Positions 22,895 through 35,611 of a stretch of 64,000 nt of DNA are shown piece by piece. The stretch comes from Pseudomonadota bacterium (GTDB lineage: Bacteria > Desulfobacterota > Binatia > Binatales > Binataceae): positions 1 to 64,000 of the forward strand of contig JAJPIL010000028.1 of the NCBI GenBank assembly GCA_021324755.1, in the 5' to 3' direction. The translations under genes were made by a program, and so were the position numbers. Under the pieces are notes generated by a model. That model was not told the DNA's origin and did no database searches. It worked only from the letters and a program-made list of their open reading frames with translations. The stretch's first letter is position 1; every line of letters starts with the position of its first letter.

Positions 22895-24022
22895 GTGTTA
22901 GAGGGGGTGCCTTCGACGATTCATGACTGGGTTGCGAACGTTGTTGCTCTTCTTTGGCCGGGCGCGCACGTCGGCCTTATAGAGGAGCTTCAGCCGGACG
23001 CCTCGGAGCGACGTTACTGGCGCGTGCGGATTGTGGATGAGCAGGGGCGAGCACCTGCTTCGGCTGTGGTGGCTTATCTTGGAGTCCATGACCTACCTGC
23101 GTACGCCAGGGCGCTCAAGCTTTTGCCTGAACCCTTACCCGAAGCTCTCTATCTCAACGTCAACCGATTTTTACGCGAAATCGGGGTCGCGGTACCGGAA
23201 GTATACTACGCCAAGCAACTGAAGCCTGCTCCGGCAAGACATGGGCCGGTCGATCGCGAGGCGATTGAAGAGAGCCGACTCGTGTTGGTCGAAGACGTAG
23301 GCGAGCTGTCTTTACTCGATGCCGCGCGGGAGAAACCTGAACGAGCGCCTGAACTGTTCCGCAAAGCTATCGACGAGCTGGTGCGCTTTCACGTCGATGG
23401 CACAAAGCGGCGGGATTCGCGCTGCTTTGCGTTTTCGGTGGCGTATGACGAGCGATTGTTTGCGTACGAAATGCAGGAATTTATCGACTACGGAATGAGC
23501 GCGCTAAAGCTTGACGCTGACCCGTCGAAACTTCGCTCGGAGACTGCGCAGCTCGCAACTCAATTGGGAGGTCTTGAACGCGTATTCTCGCATCGTGACT
23601 ATCACGGCTACAATCTCTTCGTTCAAGAAGATGGCAAAATCCGAATCTTGGACTTTCAGGACGCCTTGCTAGCGCCGCCGGTCCAGGATTTGGCGGTGAT
23701 GCTTACGACAAGGGATACCTGTGAAGTTGTGGATCCGCTTCTAGAAGCCGATTTGCTGGCATACTATCTGAATCGCGCCAAACGGCGCGCCAAAGAGCTC
23801 TCCCTAGGCGCGTTTGAGTCGGTCGAGCCTGCAAGCTTCCTCGAACAATACCGACTCGCGGTACTCCAGCACGCACTCAAGGCCATCGGACGCTTTGCTC
23901 GCCTAATTAAGGTCGGCAAAACCCGCTATGCGAAGTATTTGCCGTTTTCGGTATCTCAGGCGCGCCGCATGCTCGACTGTAGCGACGACTTCCCTTGCTT
24001 ACGGACGGCCTTGTGCGGGTAA
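22895..24022 (+). CDS. amgK: AmgK-like sugar kinase (cell-wall recycling)
   Basis: 375-residue phosphotransferase of the aminoglycoside-phosphotransferase fold. The catalytic loop HRDYHGYNLFV begins at residue 233 and the metal site ILDFQDALLAPPVQDLAVML follows. AmgK phosphorylates the anomeric position of MurNAc or GlcNAc in the anhydro-MurNAc recycling route that bypasses de novo MurA. The assignment rests on this pattern plus the overlap with a MurU-like nucleotidyltransferase, the same pairing as in Pseudomonas. GTG start at 22895; the first 10 residues are uncertain. Confidence 0.8.
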   Translation: MLEGVPSTIHDWVANVVALLWPGAHVGLIEELQPDASERRYWRVRIVDEQGRAPASAVVAYLGVHDLPAYARALKLLPEPLPEALYLNVNRFLREIGVAVPEVYYAKQLKPAPARHGPVDREAIEESRLVLVEDVGELSLLDAAREKPERAPELFRKAIDELVRFHVDGTKRRDSRCFAFSVAYDERLFAYEMQEFIDYGMSALKLDADPSKLRSETAQLATQLGGLERVFSHRDYHGYNLFVQEDGKIRILDFQDALLAPPVQDLAVMLTTRDTCEVVDPLLEADLLAYYLNRAKRRAKELSLGAFESVEPASFLEQYRLAVLQHALKAIGRFARLIKVGKTRYAKYLPFSVSQARRMLDCSDDFPCLRTALCG

Positions 24023-24876
24023 ACGATAGGGACAACTTAAGAGTCAGGAAAGCGCTAGTGCTTGCCGCCGGCATGGGAGAGCGGCTTCGCCCCTTAACCC
24101 TGGAAAAGCCTAAACCTCTACTTTTAGTCGGGGGCCGGCCACTGATTCACTATGCCTTGATGATGCTGCGACAGGCTGGGGTTACGGAGGTGGTAATTAA
24201 CCTCCATTACATGGGCGAGGCGATCCGAGCTGCGCTTGGCGACGGAACGGCCTTTGGAATCAAGATAACCTACGCGCCGGAACCCAAATTACTTAACACC
24301 GGTGGCCCGCTAGTGGCCCTGAAAGACTTTTTTGCTGGCGAAACTTTCTGGGTCGTCAACTCCGACTCTATCCTCGATTTCGATCTTCGAGCGATGGTCG
24401 ACTTCCATCGTCGCAACCGCGCGCTCGCAACTTTAGCCCTGACCGAAGAGCCCGCGAACCGAAGGTACAGCCGAATCGAGGTCGACCGGCAGGGAAGGGT
24501 GCGTCGAATACACTTGCTTACAAGGGAGGCCGTTTTAGCCGAAAGCCGCGAGTTTCGGTGTGAGGATGTTTCGGCTCAACCGGGCACCGAGTCCGACGCC
24601 CGTGCGGGAAACGGAGAAGCACGCGAGGAGCTGTTGCCGCGAATGTTTTGTGGTTTGAGCCTGTGCGAGTCGGGGCTTATCAGGTACGCTCCGCAAAGGG
24701 AAGCCTTTGGATTGGTCAGCCATCTGCTCGCCCCATTGGTTGCAAGGGGAGAAGCAATTTACGGTTATACATTTAACGGATTTTTCCGAACCGTCGACGA
24801 CCTCGAAAGCTACGAAGCACTTAAGGAGGAATTTGCTTACGACCCGCCGCAACTGAGTTATCTCAAGCAAGACTAA
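24013..24876 (+). CDS. murU: MurU-like N-acetylmuramate-1-phosphate uridylyltransferase
   Basis: Nucleotidyltransferase of about 287 residues with the signature LAAGMGERLRPLTLEKPKPLLLVGGRPL and the downstream LNTGGPLVALKDFF. It converts the AmgK product to a UDP-sugar, feeding UDP-MurNAc back into peptidoglycan synthesis. GTG 24013 is used; TTG 23995 is equally possible. Either start overlaps amgK, so the two are coupled. It is about 60 residues longer than Pseudomonas MurU, owing to an insertion around residues 170-200 (ESREFRCEDVSAQPGTESDA region). Confidence 0.8.
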   Translation: MRVNDRDNLRVRKALVLAAGMGERLRPLTLEKPKPLLLVGGRPLIHYALMMLRQAGVTEVVINLHYMGEAIRAALGDGTAFGIKITYAPEPKLLNTGGPLVALKDFFAGETFWVVNSDSILDFDLRAMVDFHRRNRALATLALTEEPANRRYSRIEVDRQGRVRRIHLLTREAVLAESREFRCEDVSAQPGTESDARAGNGEAREELLPRMFCGLSLCESGLIRYAPQREAFGLVSHLLAPLVARGEAIYGYTFNGFFRTVDDLESYEALKEEFAYDPPQLSYLKQD

Positions 24877-27503: not shown

Positions 27504-28700
27504 ATGGACTTTACGCTTTCGCCAAGAGCAGAAGAACTGCGGGCAAAAGTTGCCGCTTTCATGGATGAGTACGTGTACCCAGCCGAGTCGGTCGCTCGGG
27601 AACAAGAGCGCTCGTTGGAAAAGCCCGGTGCCGATCCTCCTATCGTGGTCGAGCTCAGGAAAAAAGCCAAAGCTCAGGGGTTGTGGAACCTGTTTATGCC
27701 CGACCCGAGGTACGGAAAGGGCCTCAAAAACTGGGAATATGCCCCGATATGCGAACTTATGGGCCGAAGCCCAATCGGTGCGCGCGTCTTTAACTGCAAT
27801 GCGCCCGATACGGGCAACATGGAAATTCTGGCCGAGTTCGGCACACCGGAACAAAAAGAGCGGTGGCTTAAGCCGGCGTTAGAGGGTGAAATAAGAAGCT
27901 GCTTTTCGATGACCGAACCCGAAACGGCAGGGTCCGATCCCACCCTGCTACGAACCAGAGCTGTGCGCGACGGCGATTATTACGTGATCAATGGGCACAA
28001 ATGGTTCACCAGCGGCGCGCTGGGCGCCGCCTTCGCGATCGTGATGGCGGTAACTAACCCCGACGCCGAACCCCATCGGCGAGCCAGTCAAATTATCGTG
28101 CCTCTGGACACTCCCGGCGTGAAAATCGTGCGCGCGGTGCCGGTTATGGGAGCCGTTCACGGAGGAGGGCACTGCGAAATACTCTACGAAAATTGCCGAG
28201 TGCCAGTAACCAATCTCTTGGGCAAGGAAGGCGACGGCTTTGCCATCGCTCAGGCGCGGCTAGGGCCAGGACGAATCCATCACTGCATGAGGATGATCGG
28301 TGCCGCCGAGCGCGCCCTTGAGCTAATGTGCAAACGGGCAAATACGCGATGGACCCACGGCAGTTACTTGGCCGACAAAAGCAATGTCCAGGAGTGGATC
28401 GCGGATTCGCGCATCGAGATCGACGCTTCGCGCCTGATGGTTATGTACGCCGCGTGGAAAATGGACACCGTGGGGAAAAAGGAAGCGCGCCAGGAAATCT
28501 CGATGATTAAGGTACTGGCAGCCAATACCGTGATGCGTGTGCTCGACCGCGCGATCCAAGTGCACGGCGCTCTTGGAATGAGCGATGACACTCCGCTTGC
28601 CTTTTTCTGGCGCGAGTTGCGCGGGCTTCGTCTAGCTGACGGCCCTGACGAGGTCCATCGGATGACGATCGCCAGGCGCGAGCTCGCCAAATGGAAGTGA
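27504..28700 (+). CDS. Acyl-CoA dehydrogenase, ACAD10/ACAD11 type
   Basis: 398-residue FAD-dependent acyl-CoA dehydrogenase. The FAD/substrate-binding stretches CFSMTEPETAGSDPT and WFTSGALGAAFAIVMAV are present. The C-terminus carries LRLADGPDEVH (375-385) after HGALGMSDDTPLA, the signature of the ACAD10/11 clade in place of the usual YEGTSQIQ. In animals this domain is fused behind an aminoglycoside-phosphotransferase-like domain; here the kinase is the next gene. Homologues (ACAD10/11; LvaC of the levulinate pathway is analogous) act on a phosphorylated 4-hydroxyacyl-CoA and yield an enoyl-CoA. ATG 27504, GGGGGAG upstream. Confidence 0.9.
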   Translation: MDFTLSPRAEELRAKVAAFMDEYVYPAESVAREQERSLEKPGADPPIVVELRKKAKAQGLWNLFMPDPRYGKGLKNWEYAPICELMGRSPIGARVFNCNAPDTGNMEILAEFGTPEQKERWLKPALEGEIRSCFSMTEPETAGSDPTLLRTRAVRDGDYYVINGHKWFTSGALGAAFAIVMAVTNPDAEPHRRASQIIVPLDTPGVKIVRAVPVMGAVHGGGHCEILYENCRVPVTNLLGKEGDGFAIAQARLGPGRIHHCMRMIGAAERALELMCKRANTRWTHGSYLADKSNVQEWIADSRIEIDASRLMVMYAAWKMDTVGKKEARQEISMIKVLAANTVMRVLDRAIQVHGALGMSDDTPLAFFWRELRGLRLADGPDEVHRMTIARRELAKWK

Positions 28701-28861
28701 AAAGCCCGCCAAGCGCGACCGTAATCCGTGACGGCTAGTGGAGTCGACCGCCCGCTTCCGAGGCTTCATTGGGCAGAGCCCTTGGTCGGCTGCGGGCACA
28801 CCAGTCAGGCTTAAGCGATACATATTGAAAACTTACTTAAATGCCGCAGAGCTAAGGAACG

Positions 28862-29974
28862 ATGACATTATCGGAGCAAACAAACGAGCTCATGGCGGAA
28901 GATGAGGTCGCCGAAGTTGGCAGCGAAGCAGACTTCGACCGCGAAAAGCTTCGCGCCTACCTCGAGGGCAAGATCGCTAGCGCGCACGGGCCGATGGAGG
29001 TTAAGCAGTTCCGCGGTGGCCATTCCAACTTGACTTATCTCTTGCGCTTCGGCGACTCGGAATGGGTTATGAGACGACCTCCACCTGGGCCCTTGCCGCC
29101 TGGTGGACATGACGTTATTCGAGAGTATCGCGTGCTTTCGGTCCTTTGGCAGGCGTATTCGCCGGCGCCTCGAGCCGTCTTGTTATGCGAAGACCCGAGC
29201 GTAATCGGCGCGCCATTCTTTATTATGGAGCGGCGCAAGGGCTTCGTATTGCGGATGCGTCAACCGGTGCCCGCCGAGCTCGATACTTCGGCTGAAAATT
29301 TGCGGCGCCTGAGCGAGGCCTTCATCGACGCGCTCGCCGCCCTGCACAATGTGGACTATCAAGCAATCGGCCTTGGCACGCTTGGGAAACCGCAAGGCTT
29401 TCTCGAACGACAGATAAATGGATGGATGATGCGGTGGGAGCGCGCCAAAACGCGCGAGCTCGCCCTCATGAACAAGCTCGGCGAGTGGTTCCTGGCGAAT
29501 ATGCCAGCGCCTCAGCCTCCGTCGCTGCTACACAACGACTTCTTCTTACATAACGTGATGTTCGATTTTAACGATGTCAGCAAAGTCAATGCAGTGCTCG
29601 ACTGGGAGATGTGCACGCTGGGCGATCCGATGGTGGACCTCGGAATCGCCCTCGGTTACTGGCGAGAGGCTGGCGATGACCCCGAGCTTTTGGCGCTCTC
29701 CGAAGGTCATGCTCACACGACGATGCCCGGCTTTCTTTCTCGCGAGCAACTGGCGCGACGGTACGCGGAAAAAACCGGCCGAGACATATCATCGTTGCCC
29801 TACTATATCGCCTGGGCCCACTGGAAGACCGCAACCGTCGTCGAGCAGCTCTACGGACGTTACCTGCGCGGCCTGACACGCGATGAGCGTTTTGCTTTGC
29901 TCGGCAAACAACCGCCGGTTTTGGCCCGCAGCGCGGCAGCATTGCTTGCCGCACACTACGGGTTTAACGCATGA
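28862..29974 (+). CDS. APH-family phosphotransferase, partner of the ACAD10/11-type dehydrogenase
   Basis: 370 residues. The P-loop region is FRGGHSNLTYLL, the Lys-equivalent region WVMRRPPPGPLPPGGHDVIREYRVL, the catalytic loop HNDFFLHNVMF begins at residue 224, and the metal site VLDWEMCTLGDPMVDLG follows. It closely resembles the N-terminal kinase domain of human ACAD11 and LvaA, which phosphorylate the 4-hydroxyl of 4-hydroxyacyl-CoAs. HND replaces the textbook HGD, a substitution tolerated in this clade. A 160-nt gap separates it from the dehydrogenase. It is expected to act with that enzyme in one two-step reaction. Confidence 0.87.
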   Translation: MTLSEQTNELMAEDEVAEVGSEADFDREKLRAYLEGKIASAHGPMEVKQFRGGHSNLTYLLRFGDSEWVMRRPPPGPLPPGGHDVIREYRVLSVLWQAYSPAPRAVLLCEDPSVIGAPFFIMERRKGFVLRMRQPVPAELDTSAENLRRLSEAFIDALAALHNVDYQAIGLGTLGKPQGFLERQINGWMMRWERAKTRELALMNKLGEWFLANMPAPQPPSLLHNDFFLHNVMFDFNDVSKVNAVLDWEMCTLGDPMVDLGIALGYWREAGDDPELLALSEGHAHTTMPGFLSREQLARRYAEKTGRDISSLPYYIAWAHWKTATVVEQLYGRYLRGLTRDERFALLGKQPPVLARSAAALLAAHYGFNA

Positions 29975-30016: not shown

Positions 30017-30892
30017 TTGCACGAGTTTACCTACGTGGCACCCTCTAGTGTCGAGGAAATCGTACAGTTTCTGGCGCAGCACCGGGAGAAGGCTCGCCCG
30101 TTTTGTGGCGGCACCGACATACTGGTTCAGATGCGCTCCGGAGTGCGACGGCCGAGCTATCTGCTCGACGTTAAAACCGCGCCCGAAACAAGACTGTTCG
30201 AGTTCGATCCCGCAAAAGGGCTCAGAATAGGCGCCGCCGTACCCTGCGCCGATGTCTCTGCCGATCCTGCGGTTAGACGCTATTACCCGGGCCTGGCTGA
30301 GGCAGCAAACCTTATCGGCTCTGTCCAGATTCGAAACCGCGCTTCGTTAGGAGGCAACTTGGCCAACGCTTCGCCAGCCGCTGACACCGTGCCTGCTCTG
30401 ATCGCTTTGGGGGCCAAGGCCGTTTTGCGAAGCGTCCAGGGCCAGCGCGAGGTTCCGGTCGAGGGCTTCGTCACCGCTCCGGGTCGAACGATTCTTAACG
30501 CAGACGAGGTTATTACCGAGTTTGTGATTCCGCCTCCGCAAAGAGGTGGCGCCGACGCATACCTTCGATTCGTCCCGCGCAACGAAATGGATATTGCCGT
30601 GGCAGGCGTCGGGGTATTCGTAAAAATGGAAGGACAGCGCTGCGTCGAGGCAAGAATTGTTTTGGGAGCGGTCGGACCGACGCAGATCGTCGCAAGCGAG
30701 GCGATGGCTTATCTCAGGGGAAGAACGCTCAACGAAGGCGTGGTTTCGCACGCTGCCGAGCTTGCCGCGCAGGCGGCCTCACCAATCGACGACGTTCGCG
30801 GTACGCGCGAATTTCGCCGCCACCTGGTCGCGGTTCTGACGCGTCGAAGCTTGCTCGCCGCCGCAAAGCGCGCCCAGGCAAACCAGAGTTAG
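30017..30892 (+). CDS. Molybdenum hydroxylase FAD-binding medium subunit
   Basis: 291 residues of the CoxM/CutM/HcrB type. FAD motifs are FCGGTDILVQMRSG near residue 31 and IRNRASLGGNLANASPAAD around residue 100. This subunit passes electrons between the 2Fe-2S subunit and the acceptor. The start is TTG 30017, supported by GGAGG 6-9 nt upstream. First of three genes in M-S-L order; the other two are the Fe-S and molybdopterin subunits. Confidence 0.92.
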   Translation: MHEFTYVAPSSVEEIVQFLAQHREKARPFCGGTDILVQMRSGVRRPSYLLDVKTAPETRLFEFDPAKGLRIGAAVPCADVSADPAVRRYYPGLAEAANLIGSVQIRNRASLGGNLANASPAADTVPALIALGAKAVLRSVQGQREVPVEGFVTAPGRTILNADEVITEFVIPPPQRGGADAYLRFVPRNEMDIAVAGVGVFVKMEGQRCVEARIVLGAVGPTQIVASEAMAYLRGRTLNEGVVSHAAELAAQAASPIDDVRGTREFRRHLVAVLTRRSLLAAAKRAQANQS

Positions 30893-30952
30893 CTTAGTTC
30901 TAGCTAACCCACTAAATCGAGCTGCTAATACTTTAGACTTAAAATTGATTAT

Positions 30953-31447
30953 ATGCCGATGAGAAAAGTTGCGGTTCAGACAACGCTTAATGGCGAACCG
31001 GTGGAGTTTCTGTGCGAACCACGGCAAAGCCTTCTCGAGGTGCTTCGCGATGTCCTTAATCTTACGGGCACCAAAGAGGGATGTCTTACTGGAGATTGCG
31101 GGGCGTGCAGCGTGCTGTTCGATGGCCGCGTTGTTTGCTCATGCCTTGTTTTGGGCGTAGAGGCTCAGGGCGCGCAGATACAAACTGTCGAAGGGCTGGC
31201 GCATGGTAATGAGCTTAGCGTTTTGCAACGCAAGTTTTTGGAGCACGCAGCTTTACAGTGCGGTATTTGCACGCCAGGTTTTCTTATCGCCGCGAAGGCG
31301 CTTTTGGACCACAATTTGAACCCGAGCGAGAGCGAAGTCCGTTACGCTCTGGCCGGCAATTTGTGCCGCTGTACGGGTTACGACAAAATCGTTCGCGCAG
31401 TGATGGATGCGGCAAAGGAGATGCGGGAGAGAGAAGCTTATGGGTAG
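30953..31447 (+). CDS. Molybdenum hydroxylase 2Fe-2S small subunit
   Basis: 164 residues with two [2Fe-2S] sites. The plant-type N-terminal cluster uses GCLTGDCGACSVLFDGRVVCSC; the C-terminal helical cluster uses CGICTPGF and NLCRCTGY. It relays electrons from the molybdenum site to FAD. ATG 30953; the stop overlaps the large-subunit start by 8 nt. Confidence 0.94.
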   Translation: MPMRKVAVQTTLNGEPVEFLCEPRQSLLEVLRDVLNLTGTKEGCLTGDCGACSVLFDGRVVCSCLVLGVEAQGAQIQTVEGLAHGNELSVLQRKFLEHAALQCGICTPGFLIAAKALLDHNLNPSESEVRYALAGNLCRCTGYDKIVRAVMDAAKEMREREAYG

Positions 31448-33734
31448 CCATACGACTGAAAGCTCCTTTCGGGTAATCGGAACTCGCCCGATCCGACACG
31501 ATGGCGTCGAAAAGGTAACGGGCCGCGCGAAGTACGGTGCCGACTACTACGTAGCCGGCATGTTGCACGGTAAGGTTTTGCGCAGCCCCCACGCTCACGC
31601 TCGCATAAAGTCAATCGACTTCTCTCGAGCGCTGGCGCTCCCAGGCGTAAAGGCCGTCGTGACCGGCAAAGACTTGCCCGAAGGTGAGAACAAGACCGTG
31701 CCGCTTGGCGAGATGACCGTAAACCCGCGCTACCTCGGCCAGAACATACTCGCCCGCGACAAGGTGCTCTATTACGGCCACGCCGTGGCTGCAGTAGCGG
31801 CCATAAGCCCCCACATCGCCGAACAGGCGCTTGAACTTATCGAGGTGGATTACGAAGTTTTGCCTCCAGTGCTAAGCGTCGAGCAGGCGATGGCCGAGGG
31901 AGCTCCGATTCTCCATCCCGATCTACGCAACGAGGAACTGGGGGACGTGCCGACGAACGTCGCCAAGCATGTGGTGCTGACACGGGGCGACGTCGAAGCC
32001 GGATTCCGCGAAGCGCATTTTATCGTCGAGCGAGAGTTTCGCACCTCGATGGTCCATCAGGGATACATCGAGCCGCACAATGCCCTGGCGATATACAACG
32101 CCGACGGCAAGGCGACGATATACTGCTCCACCCAGGGGCCGTTCGAGGTACGCGGGATGAGCGCGGCCGTGCTGGGCTTGCCCGTCGGCAGTATCAAAGT
32201 GGTCCCAGCGGAGATCGGCGGCGGGTTTGGCGGCAAAACCACCGTCTACCTTGAACCGCTGGCCTTACTGTTGGCGATGAAGACGGGGCAACCGGTGAAG
32301 ATGGTGATGACGCGCAGCGAAGTGCTGCGCGCAACCGGCCCTACGTCCGGTTCGCTCATCAGAGTCAAGATGGGCTGCACTAAAGAGGGCAAGATTACGG
32401 CGGCGAAGATATGGATGGCTTACGAAGCAGGGGCTTTCCCGGGCTCCCCAGTCGGAGCAGCCACGATGACCGTGCTTGCGCCGTACGCGATCCCCAACGT
32501 GCAAATCGACGGCTACGACGTAGTGGTCAACAAGCCCAAAACCGCCGCTTACCGTGCGCCAGGCGCGACCAACGCCGCTTTTGCCGCCGAAACCGTGATT
32601 GACGAACTTGCCGAGCTATGCGGCATCGATCCGCTCGACATACGCATCCTCAACGGCGCTCGCGAAGGCACGCCCCATCCCGCTGGCCCGCCTTATCGGC
32701 GGATCGGCTTTATCGAGACGTGCGAGGCAATAAAGGCAAGCGAGCACTATCGCTCGAATCTCGAAGGCCCAAACCGCGGGCGAGGCGTGGCCTCTGGCTT
32801 TTGGTTCAATGCTGGGATGCAATCCGCCGCGGTCGTAAACATCCATCTCGACGGCACGGCAAGTGTGGTCACCGGTTCGCCTGATATCGGCGGCACGCGC
32901 GCGGCGTGCGCGATGATCGCCGCCGAGGTTCTCGGACTTAACGTCGAAGACGTTCGTCCCGTCGTTACCGACACTGACTCGATAGGACATACGGACGTTA
33001 CCGGGGGCAGTCGAGTTACCTTCGCCACAGGGATGGCGGTTTTTAGGGCTGCCGAAGATGCACTTGCACAGCTCAAGGAGCGAGCAGCCAAGCTTTGGGA
33101 ATGCAAAGTCGAGGAGGTTGAGTTTCGGGACGGAAAGTTTTACTGCAAAACCAACAATGCAACGCCGCTCTCCGTAAGCGAGTTGGCCAAACGGCTGCCT
33201 CGCCTTGGCGGGCCGGTCACGGGCCGCGCAACCGTCAACGCGCGCGGAGTTGGACCATCGTTTGCCACGTGTTGTATCGACGTCGAAGTGGACCCTGAAA
33301 CGGGGCGCGTCCAGATTCTGCGCTGTACGGTGGCGCAAGACGCCGGCCGAGCGATTCACCCCGCATACGTGGAAGGACAAATGCAGGGCGGCACCGCGCA
33401 GGGGATCGGCTGGGCCTTGAACGAGGAGTACATATACGACAGCGACGGTCACTTAATGAACTCAACGCTGCTCGACTACCGAATGCCCACTTGTCCGGAC
33501 CTACCGATGATCGAAACCATAATTGTGGAGGTACCAAATCCCGGCCATCCGCTGGGCGTACGCGGAGTTGGCGAAGTATCGATCGTGCCCCCTCCAGCGG
33601 CGATCGCCAACGCTGTCTACCGCGCCGTCGGCGTGCGGATGACCGAACTACCGATGTCGCCGGCCCGCCTGTGGAAAGCGATTGCGCAGAAGGAGTCGAC
33701 TCGCTCGGGGCTCGGCCGAGCACAACACGGGTAA
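31440..33734 (+). CDS. Molybdenum hydroxylase large (Mo-molybdopterin) subunit
   Basis: 764 residues of the xanthine dehydrogenase/aldehyde oxidase family, N-terminal a/b hammerhead plus Mo-binding domains. The catalytic Glu sits in RGVGEVSI (Glu712, near the C-terminus), and GGGFGGKTTVYLEPLA binds the pterin cofactor. The active-site loop reads AYRAPGA (370-376), not the AYxCSFR of aerobic CO dehydrogenase. The enzyme is thus more like aldehyde/aryl-CoA oxidoreductases such as 4-hydroxybenzoyl-CoA reductase; the substrate is unknown. ATG 31440 is chosen over the upstream in-frame codons at 31407 because it overlaps the previous stop in the usual coupled manner. Confidence 0.9.
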   Translation: MGSHTTESSFRVIGTRPIRHDGVEKVTGRAKYGADYYVAGMLHGKVLRSPHAHARIKSIDFSRALALPGVKAVVTGKDLPEGENKTVPLGEMTVNPRYLGQNILARDKVLYYGHAVAAVAAISPHIAEQALELIEVDYEVLPPVLSVEQAMAEGAPILHPDLRNEELGDVPTNVAKHVVLTRGDVEAGFREAHFIVEREFRTSMVHQGYIEPHNALAIYNADGKATIYCSTQGPFEVRGMSAAVLGLPVGSIKVVPAEIGGGFGGKTTVYLEPLALLLAMKTGQPVKMVMTRSEVLRATGPTSGSLIRVKMGCTKEGKITAAKIWMAYEAGAFPGSPVGAATMTVLAPYAIPNVQIDGYDVVVNKPKTAAYRAPGATNAAFAAETVIDELAELCGIDPLDIRILNGAREGTPHPAGPPYRRIGFIETCEAIKASEHYRSNLEGPNRGRGVASGFWFNAGMQSAAVVNIHLDGTASVVTGSPDIGGTRAACAMIAAEVLGLNVEDVRPVVTDTDSIGHTDVTGGSRVTFATGMAVFRAAEDALAQLKERAAKLWECKVEEVEFRDGKFYCKTNNATPLSVSELAKRLPRLGGPVTGRATVNARGVGPSFATCCIDVEVDPETGRVQILRCTVAQDAGRAIHPAYVEGQMQGGTAQGIGWALNEEYIYDSDGHLMNSTLLDYRMPTCPDLPMIETIIVEVPNPGHPLGVRGVGEVSIVPPPAAIANAVYRAVGVRMTELPMSPARLWKAIAQKESTRSGLGRAQHG

Positions 33735-33830: not shown

Positions 33831-34094
33831 ATGGCAAACGTGCATATTCCCACGCAGATGCGACAATTATGCGGCGGACAAGAGTTGGTTAAAATTCCGG
33901 GCAAAACCGTCCGCGAATTGATCGAAGAACTGGAGCATCGGTTTCCAGGCGTAAAGAACTACCTTTTAGACGGCAACGATCTCAGGCCTTCGATCGCGGT
34001 ATGGGTGGACGGGGAGCTGGCTCCCGCCGGTTTACTCGAAACGGTCGGCCCCGAAAGCGAAGTTCACTTTATGCCAGCGATCGGAGGCGGATAA
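33831..34094 (+). CDS. MoaD/ThiS-family ubiquitin-like sulfur carrier
   Basis: 87-residue beta-grasp protein ending in GlyGlyGly (MPAIGGG), the terminus that MoaD and ThiS use as a thiocarboxylate. It has a typical RELIEELEHRFPGV helix and a VWVDGEL strand. The nearest genes are a molybdenum hydroxylase upstream and a thiolase downstream, 96 and 284 nt away. A role in cofactor sulfur supply for the hydroxylase is plausible; so is another MoaD-like function such as a tungsten cofactor or protein conjugation. No MoaE is nearby. ATG 33831 lacks a good Shine-Dalgarno. Confidence 0.8.
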   Translation: MANVHIPTQMRQLCGGQELVKIPGKTVRELIEELEHRFPGVKNYLLDGNDLRPSIAVWVDGELAPAGLLETVGPESEVHFMPAIGGG

Positions 34095-34378: not shown

Positions 34379-35611
34379 ATGGGTGAAGCTTGGATAATCG
34401 ACGCAGTTCGAACTCCTCGTGGCATCGGTAAAAAAGGTAAAGGCGCGCTTTCGGACGTTCATCCGCAGGAACTTTTCGCTCAATGCCTGAACGCGCTTCG
34501 CAGTCGCAACGCTTTTGAGCCTGACGAGATCGACGACGTGGTGTGCGGGTGTGTCTCGCAGGTTGGCGAACAAGGCGCATGTATCGCCCGCATGGCGGTC
34601 CTGTGCGCGGGATGGCCGATTGAACCCAGCGGGGTTACGCTCAACCGGTTCTGCGGCTCAGGGCAGCAGGCGGTTAACTTCGCTGCGATGGGCATCATGT
34701 CTGGCCAACAGGACGCGGTGATTGCGGGCGGGGTCGAAAGCATGTCGCGCTGCCCGCTGTTTAGTGACGGCGGTGGCGTGGCAGGGGAAAATCCCGACCT
34801 TCTCAAGCTTCATCCTTTGGTGCCACAGGGAATCAGCGCTGACCTAATCGCAACCTTGGAAGGCTTTAGCCGCGAAGACTGCGACCGGTTTGCGTATGAG
34901 AGTCAGATGAAGTGCAAGCGCGCGGTCGAGGAGGGTCGTTTTGCCAAAAGCCTAATTCCAGTTAGAGGAAAAGATGGCAAGGTTCTTCTGGACCGCGACG
35001 AACATCCCCGACCTTATACGACTTTGGAAGGATTGGCCAAGCTCGAGCCCGCTTTTGCCAATATTGGAGCGAGCACTTACTTGCTAGGCGACCTGACTTT
35101 TGACCAAGCTGCGCTCAAGCGTTATCCGCAGCTGCGCGAAATTCGCCACGTACACACTGCGGGCAACTCGAGCGGAATCGTCGACGGCGCTGGGGCGCTG
35201 TTACTAGCCTCGCCACAGTGGGCACGGGCGCGAGGACTTAAACCACGAGCACGGGTGCGAGCGATGGCAACCTGCGGCTCCGAGCCCGTGATAATGCTGA
35301 CCGGACCTGTCGAAGCCACAAGGCGATGCCTAAAGCGAGCAGGAATGACGATAAACGACATCGACCTGTTCGAGATTAATGAAGCTTTCGCGGCCGTGCC
35401 GCTTAAAGTGATGCGCGACCTCGAGATCGACCCCGAGCGGGTCAATGTAAACGGAGGCGCGATCGCCTTGGGTCACCCCCTGGGAGCAACCGGTGCGATG
35501 CTGCTCGGTACGCTGCTGGACGAGATGGAGCGTCGCGACAAGGCCACGGGACTTGTCACGATGTGTATCGGCGGCGGAATGGGAATCGCCACGATCATTG
35601 AGCGCTTCTAA
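34379..35611 (+). CDS. Thiolase (acetyl-CoA acyltransferase)
   Basis: 410-residue thiolase with all catalytic motifs: Cys92 (nucleophile, NRFCGSGQQ), His366 (GHPLGATGA) and Cys396 (CIGGGMG). Family members either cleave 3-ketoacyl-CoA in beta-oxidation or condense acetyl-CoA. Its position beside an acyl-CoA dehydrogenase/kinase pair favours the degradative role. ATG 34379 is the first in-frame start; the 284-nt gap upstream suggests its own promoter. Confidence 0.9.

Follow-up and report, generated by a model that had tools for sequence, protein, structure and literature searches.

The window analysed here is a stretch of 64,000 nucleotides (positions 1 to 64,000 of contig JAJPIL010000028.1) from a genome of 3.07 Mb, 95.5% complete, that belongs to the family Candidatus Binataceae of the phylum Candidatus Binatota. 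On its plus strand, an acyl-coenzyme A (CoA) dehydrogenase (ACAD) gene is followed by a kinase gene; the two are separate open reading frames, the ACAD first, with 161 bases between the stop of one and the start of the other. An initial annotation, made from the letters alone, had read them as a split version of the animal proteins ACAD10/11, in which both domains are fused, and had proposed that they act on hydroxylated fatty acids. Both reading frames lie where it had placed them, and the features of the pair are as follows.

27504..28700, plus strand: ACAD of the ACAD10/11-LvaC type, 398 residues, ATG start (Pfam ACAD N, M and C domains; PDB matches; HCMR motif and Asp base)
28257..28259, plus strand: codon of R252, placed by alignment with mouse ACAD11 R626 (role according to PMC12440821)
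28281..28292, plus strand: codons of H260-C-M-R263, the HCMR motif, placed by alignment (roles of H and R according to PMC12440821)
28638..28640, plus strand: codon of D379, putative Asp catalytic base, placed by alignment with mouse ACAD11 D753
28862..29974, plus strand: APH-fold kinase, proposed 4-hydroxyacyl-CoA kinase, 370 residues, ATG start (Pfam APH; PDB matches; AlphaFold2 model)
29531..29554, plus strand: kinase catalytic loop HNDFFLHN with D226 and N231, placed by alignment with mouse ACAD11 D220 and N225

The motifs on which that annotation relied are also present: the kinase protein holds both FRGGHSN and HND (residues 224-226), and LADGPDEVH occurs in the dehydrogenase, although at residues 377-385 of 398, which is near the end of the protein and not its very end as had been stated.

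The acyl-CoA dehydrogenase and the kinase

In a search of PDB sequences, the best solved relatives of the ACAD are 4hr3 (396 bits) and the ACAD11 chains (361-364 bits), the best other ACAD reaching 178 bits. The AlphaFold2 model (mean predicted local distance difference test score, pLDDT, 89.6) has 4hr3 and ACAD11 as its structural matches of ranks 1-4, with template modelling (TM) scores of 0.93-0.94 and identities of 46-48% (48% and TM 0.94 for 4hr3; 46-47% and TM 0.93 for ACAD11), after which the values fall to 0.85 and 31%. In mouse ACAD11, residues R626, H634, R637 and D753 are described as absent from conventional ACADs or conserved with LvaC, and substitutions at these positions abolish or impair the ACAD step, R637K doing so only in part (PMC12440821). 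Counting along the chain, they map to R252, H260, R263 and D379, respectively. R252, H260, C261, M262 and R263 are identical in all 15 aligned ACAD rows (window included), and D379 is nearly invariant, one row ending short there; these counts come from a 15-row alignment without L088, and a 16-row alignment that includes L088 in the wrong frame served to search the genome's own ACADs. The comparison of a structural model with ACAD11, which the initial annotation had suggested as a check, was favourable, and the ACAD active-site residues that could be mapped are in place.

Within the genome, HCMR is found only in the window ACAD among 15 ACAD-family matches, being absent from the ACAD frame of the 14 others, and the other ACADs with a recognisable base motif mostly carry Glu in it. 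A D-G-x-x-Q-V-H match in L193 was dropped as evidence because it lies in a reading frame other than that of the L193 ACAD. From the sequence and the predicted structure, we propose that the window protein is an ACAD of the ACAD10/11-LvaC type that would eliminate phosphate from 4-phosphoacyl-CoA.

Regarding the kinase, it matches Pfam APH with 163 bits (cut-off 23), and its matches in the PDB sequence search include 9o56 (339 bits), 3dxp (173), ACAD11 (151 and 147) and 25-hydroxy-steroid kinase (47). Its AlphaFold2 model has a mean pLDDT of 90.1, and D226, N231, R87 and R183 are the same in all 17 aligned rows. R86 and R176 of the ACAD11 kinase domain have been proposed to contact CoA. R183 of the window kinase aligns with the ACAD11 Arg that is counted as 175 along the chain, or 176 with Met1; 25-hydroxy-steroid kinase also aligns an Arg there and, consequently, this residue does not separate the two types. 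For 9o56, which is named only as an aminoglycoside phosphotransferase, the literature search found no paper, and the entry is not among the best 50 Foldseek matches listed for the kinase model. The protein is related to the ACAD11 kinase domain and is proposed to be a 4-hydroxyacyl-CoA kinase.

Taken as a pair, the two proteins are therefore best placed with ACAD10/11 and LvaA/LvaC, as had been suggested: sequence, predicted structure and mappable active-site residues all back this assignment, with one mapping (that of R86) uncertain. By contrast, the separation of the two genes, which the initial annotation had found worthy of note, is not a novelty. LvaA and LvaC of Pseudomonas putida are already two proteins, and it has been shown in vitro that a separate kinase and a separate ACAD, orthologues from a different bacterium, can take the place of the ACAD10 domains (PMC11342911). 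To this we can add a scan in which the kinase alignment was run against one genome per species and the 80 best of at least 565 loci were retained, 72 of them outside Binataceae; up to 9 kb were fetched on each side of the named loci (some loci are much shorter). In 31 of these 72 loci, there is an ACAD with a score above 100 bits at no more than 3 kb from the kinase; HCMR is present in 28 of the 31, the Asp motif in 29, and both genes are on the same strand in 29. In a tree of 116 rows, the paired loci are scattered over many phyla, and the Binataceae orthologues form a single clade of 32 rows (100/100). As LvaA and LvaC are published as separate proteins and the pairing recurs across phyla, the split pair must be regarded as already known from other bacteria. 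The presence of the HND loop in 70 of the 72 loci was dropped as evidence because the retrieval pattern itself contained HND.

Two further loci, L086 (G011:C71) and L087 (G024:C181), hold a second, diverged Binataceae pair of a kinase and an HCMR-type ACAD, about 33-35% and 51-52% identical to those of the window. They fall outside the 32-row Binataceae clade and were left out of the 23 same-family loci considered below.

The molybdenum hydroxylase cassette in Binataceae

Only 42 bases separate the end of the kinase gene from the next gene, the first of a molybdenum (Mo) hydroxylase of the xanthine dehydrogenase family. The initial annotation had listed a hydroxylase at 30017-33734; such an enzyme is indeed there, but it consists of three genes, and a fourth gene that had not been listed follows them:

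30017..30892, plus strand: flavin adenine dinucleotide (FAD) subunit of the xanthine-dehydrogenase-family Mo hydroxylase, 291 residues (Pfam; three cysteines)
30953..31447, plus strand: 2Fe-2S subunit of the same enzyme (Pfam; ten cysteines)
31407..33734, plus strand: molybdopterin-binding large subunit (Pfam; GVGE at residues 720-723; the ATG at 31440 may be the true start)
33831..34094, plus strand: MoaD/ThiS-like protein, 87 residues, Gly-Gly-Gly end (Pfam ThiS 38.7 bits, cut-off 22.5)
34379..35611, plus strand: acetyl-CoA C-acyltransferase (thiolase), a neighbour whose membership of the cluster is doubtful (2 of the 23 same-family loci have it by the pair)

The linkage of this cassette to the pair is well conserved in the family. 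Of the 23 loci of same-family relatives, 22 have the ACAD orthologue within 3 kb of the kinase orthologue and on its strand, and 19 have the FAD subunit after the kinase; this subunit is missing from L057 (which has only a divergent large subunit), L061, L070 (whose kinase is close to the contig end that lies towards the ACAD) and L092. A wider search of 148 Binatia genomes gave 38 Binataceae genomes with 39 kinase orthologues. Of these 39 loci, 26 have a Mo large subunit on the strand of the kinase and at most 8 kb downstream of it (G017, counted here, has a nearer divergent large subunit besides one on the kinase strand some 4 kb downstream). In genomes of other Binatia families that have both the kinase and a large subunit, none of 17 kinase loci has the large subunit beside it; the part of the matches checked by eye places it on a different contig or over 1 Mb from the kinase. 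Likewise, no Mo large subunit was found in the 72 named kinase loci elsewhere; the six named loci, out of 80, that have one are all from Binataceae. Thus, the Mo hydroxylase cassette is linked to the pair in Binataceae, where it forms a putative operon with it. As a partner of the pair, the hydroxylase is consequently better supported than the initial annotation could have known.

The same cannot be said of the thiolase, which had also been named as a possible partner. Both this gene and an MscS gene (25263) were rejected as partners, as they are by the pair only in the two closest relatives' loci, L054 and L055; moreover, a gap of 644 bases, which holds the MoaD/ThiS-like gene, separates the large subunit from the thiolase. 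A scan for promoters and terminators gave fewer sites than shuffled sequences and, consequently, neither supports nor excludes the operon. In the literature searched, mostly at the level of listings, no description of a Binataceae operon with a Mo hydroxylase was found, nor by searching terms in the Binatota paper (PMC8262859); this operon is what goes beyond the published work that was found.

As to the kind of enzyme encoded, the main domains of the three subunits (FAD, 2Fe-2S and molybdopterin) are above the Pfam cut-offs, and all three subunits are below the cut-off of every NCBIfam model of the xanthine dehydrogenase family listed for them. The best solved match of the large subunit is the alpha subunit of 4-hydroxybenzoyl-CoA reductase (359 bits), followed by carbon monoxide (CO) dehydrogenase (296), and its GVGE motif presumably holds the catalytic glutamate. 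For the FAD subunit, the closest matches are 4zoh (137 bits), a Sulfolobus glyceraldehyde-type dehydrogenase, and CO dehydrogenases. The FAD subunit of 4-hydroxybenzoyl-CoA reductase carries an extra insertion that binds [4Fe-4S]; against that subunit (beta), the window protein scores 64 bits, at rank 13 and in two pieces, it has 291 residues versus 324, its only cysteines are at positions 30, 77 and 209, and it reaches 123 bits with the corresponding NCBIfam model, whose cut-off is 405. A true 4-hydroxybenzoyl-CoA reductase was rejected on account of this short and cysteine-poor FAD subunit. Because of the matches of the FAD subunit and its three cysteines, an oxidative hydroxylase seems more likely than a reductase.

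The composition of the cassette varies among relatives. Eight of the 23 same-family loci have two large subunits in tandem after a single FAD and 2Fe-2S pair (L063, L065-L069, L073 and L091), L203 has three, and the window has one. In L063 at least, a ThiS-like gene stands between the tandem large subunits. A MoaD/ThiS-like gene also follows the large subunit in the relatives L056 and L063 and on three alphaproteobacterial plasmids, and the product of window positions 33831-34094 is possibly a sulphur carrier dedicated to the Mo cassette. In other Binatia families, the cassette has different neighbours. One is a gene of the XdhC type (a single one, that of L200, was scanned; its cluster accounts for 5 of 14 fetched loci), and another, in L204, is an ACAD of a different type.

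Elsewhere in the window, at 22895-24876 on the plus strand, there is an AmgK/MurU-like pair of a kinase and a nucleotidyltransferase, with 57 bits (NCBIfam cut-off 500) and 142 bits (cut-off 250), respectively.

Proposed mechanism and competing explanations

We consider it probable, judging from sequence and modelled structure, that the pair consists of a 4-hydroxyacyl-CoA kinase and a phosphate-eliminating ACAD that together feed beta-oxidation. In this scheme, the kinase would move a phosphate from adenosine triphosphate (ATP) onto the 4-hydroxyl of a 4-hydroxyacyl-CoA, with D226 as the catalytic Asp and N231 in a supporting role. The ACAD would then bind the 4-phosphoacyl-CoA, and D379 would remove the alpha proton, while the FAD would accept and then return a hydride, a rebound such as that proposed for ACAD11 (PMC12440821); R252, H260 and R263 would hold the departing phosphate. 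The product would be a 2-enoyl-CoA, able to enter ordinary beta-oxidation, and the net reaction an ATP-driven dehydration. The linkage hints, in addition, at a role for the Mo hydroxylase, which most likely would prepare the hydroxy acid, for instance by converting a 4-hydroxyaldehyde or its cyclic hemiacetal into the acid or lactone with water as oxygen donor.

Several observations weigh against this interpretation. In the kinase, the catalytic loop is HND instead of HGD, and this is invariant in the 17 aligned rows; by sequence, the protein is closer to 9o56 than to ACAD11 (339 versus 151 bits); and Foldseek, given the kinase model, places 3dxp first, 25-hydroxy-steroid kinase (9ft5 and 9fsg) second to fourth and ACAD11 at rank 23. 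As Foldseek puts 25-hydroxy-steroid kinase above ACAD11, the ranking by fold is less clear than that by sequence. Furthermore, R87 aligns with an Arg beside the alphaC Glu that counts as 84 with Met1 in the 8v3v chain, whereas the published residue is R86, which makes this mapping uncertain. In the ACAD, the Asp base is not diagnostic by itself, since L194 of the same genome has Asp at that position without HCMR. Additionally, there is no ACAD within 3 kb in 41 of the 72 kinase loci outside Binataceae, many of them short, and an ACAD is within that distance in only 16 of the 46 such loci that extend 3 kb or more to either side. For 13 of the 39 Binataceae kinase loci, the search downstream gave no Mo large subunit; in five of these (G012, G019, G024, G028 and G029), the contig ends less than 2.5 kb further on. 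In G003 and G028, the sole large-subunit copy is divergent and stands on the far side, G012 has a large-subunit fragment at the contig end, and G016 has the FAD and 2Fe-2S subunits without a large subunit. Finally, no match to AMP-binding (CoA ligase) domains was found in the cluster or on the contig of the window.

The best surviving alternative retains the phosphorylation and elimination chemistry and proposes a dedicated substrate supplied by the Mo hydroxylase (e.g., a cyclic, aromatic-derived or branched hydroxyacyl-CoA) instead of 4-hydroxy fatty acids in general. We regard it as a real, if tentative, possibility. The Binataceae clade is alone, among the loci examined, in having the Mo cassette by the pair (26/39 compared with 0/17 and 0/72, some loci being short), the large subunits are found in tandem in eight of 23 same-family loci, and 4-hydroxybenzoyl-CoA reductase, whose alpha subunit is the best solved match of the large subunit, acts on CoA thioesters. 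By contrast, the ACAD has the active-site residues of ACAD11 at the positions mapped, and the cassette is also found away from the pair in other families and, as a consequence, need not share its pathway.

That the kinase phosphorylates an alcohol that is not a CoA thioester, as 25-hydroxy-steroid kinase does, with the ACAD acting elsewhere, seems unlikely. The Foldseek ranking given above would favour this explanation, as would the fact that 25-hydroxy-steroid kinase likewise acts after a molybdenum hydroxylase, in a dehydration that depends on ATP (PMC8449060). However, that enzyme is far behind ACAD11 and 3dxp by sequence (47 bits versus 151 and 173), the Foldseek alignment to the ACAD11 entry covered only 238 columns of a 566-residue chain, the kinase is strongly linked to the HCMR-type ACAD within Binataceae, and the steroid hydroxylases belong to the dimethyl sulfoxide (DMSO) reductase family and not to that of xanthine dehydrogenase (PMC8449060, PMC6016249). 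Lastly, an ordinary ACAD linked to electron-transfer flavoprotein and standing beside an unrelated kinase is very improbable: the general Pfam ACAD domains do match and one other ACAD of the genome has Asp at the base position, but HCMR, the upstream Arg and the Asp base occur together here, ACAD11 is among the nearest solved relatives and the linkage is conserved.

Starting again from the phosphorylation and elimination of 4-hydroxyacyl-CoA, a more speculative and rather doubtful extension is that five to seven genes make up a single pathway in Binataceae. In it, the Mo hydroxylase (one or two large subunits, with its own MoaD/ThiS helper) would hydroxylate its substrate with oxygen derived from water, possibly on a CoA thioester, after which ATP-driven dehydration would remove the oxygen to give an enoyl-CoA. 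If true, this would be an oxygenase-free activation route, similar to the Mo hydroxylase and kinase steps of anaerobic cholesterol degradation, although with a Mo enzyme of another family.

Comparison with known systems and significance

The lva operon of P. putida, which serves levulinate catabolism, resembles the window in that its kinase and ACAD genes are separate and the same two steps are predicted. In that operon, the kinase, the ACAD and an acyl-CoA ligase are in one cluster; the cluster of the window, by contrast, has no acyl-CoA ligase match and has the Mo cassette and the MoaD/ThiS-like gene. Elsewhere in the genome, there are 11 strong AMP-binding matches of the CoA ligase type and 15 matches to the enoyl-CoA hydratase family above the cut-off, none of either kind being on the contig of the window. 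The catalytic Asp and other active-site residues are common to LvaC and ACAD10/11 (PMC12440821). With animal ACAD11, the window shares an ACAD that is 46-47% identical, with the essential residues mapped, and a related kinase domain (151 bits). In the animal ACAD10/11 proteins, however, the domains are fused with the kinase first, whereas the window has separate genes, the ACAD first, and no HAD domain such as that of ACAD10.

Two other comparisons concern the cassette. 4-Hydroxybenzoyl-CoA reductase (1rm6/1sb3) is the best solved relative of the large subunit, but differs in its FAD subunit. On plasmids of Sinorhizobium, Mesorhizobium and Ruegeria, there are cassettes with a large subunit about 51-52% identical to that of the window; as in the window, a 2Fe-2S gene precedes this subunit and a MoaD/ThiS gene follows. 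They differ in that the three annotated stretches have no kinase-ACAD pair, that the FAD gene is not listed in the incomplete Sinorhizobium table and that the records give no specific function. 25-Hydroxy-steroid kinase of Sterolibacterium denitrificans, for its part, has a related fold and takes part in an ATP-dependent dehydration next to Mo hydroxylase chemistry (PMC8449060), but its substrate is a steroid alcohol and not a CoA thioester, and it is distant from the window kinase in sequence (47 bits). The lyase that acts after this kinase was unknown in that 2021 paper; a phosphate-eliminating enzyme of the ACAD type would be one kind of candidate.

4-Hydroxy acids are largely incompatible with normal beta-oxidation, and the enzymes that handle them in mammals were described in 2024-2025 (PMC11342911, PMC12440821). 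The pair described here would extend this chemistry to an uncultured phylum, as free-standing domains that are open to separate study. The link with the Mo hydroxylase, seen in a single family among the loci examined, may in turn serve as a lead to the source of hydroxy acids in Binataceae. It may also help to assign a function to the Mo cassette, for which the plasmid records name none in particular.

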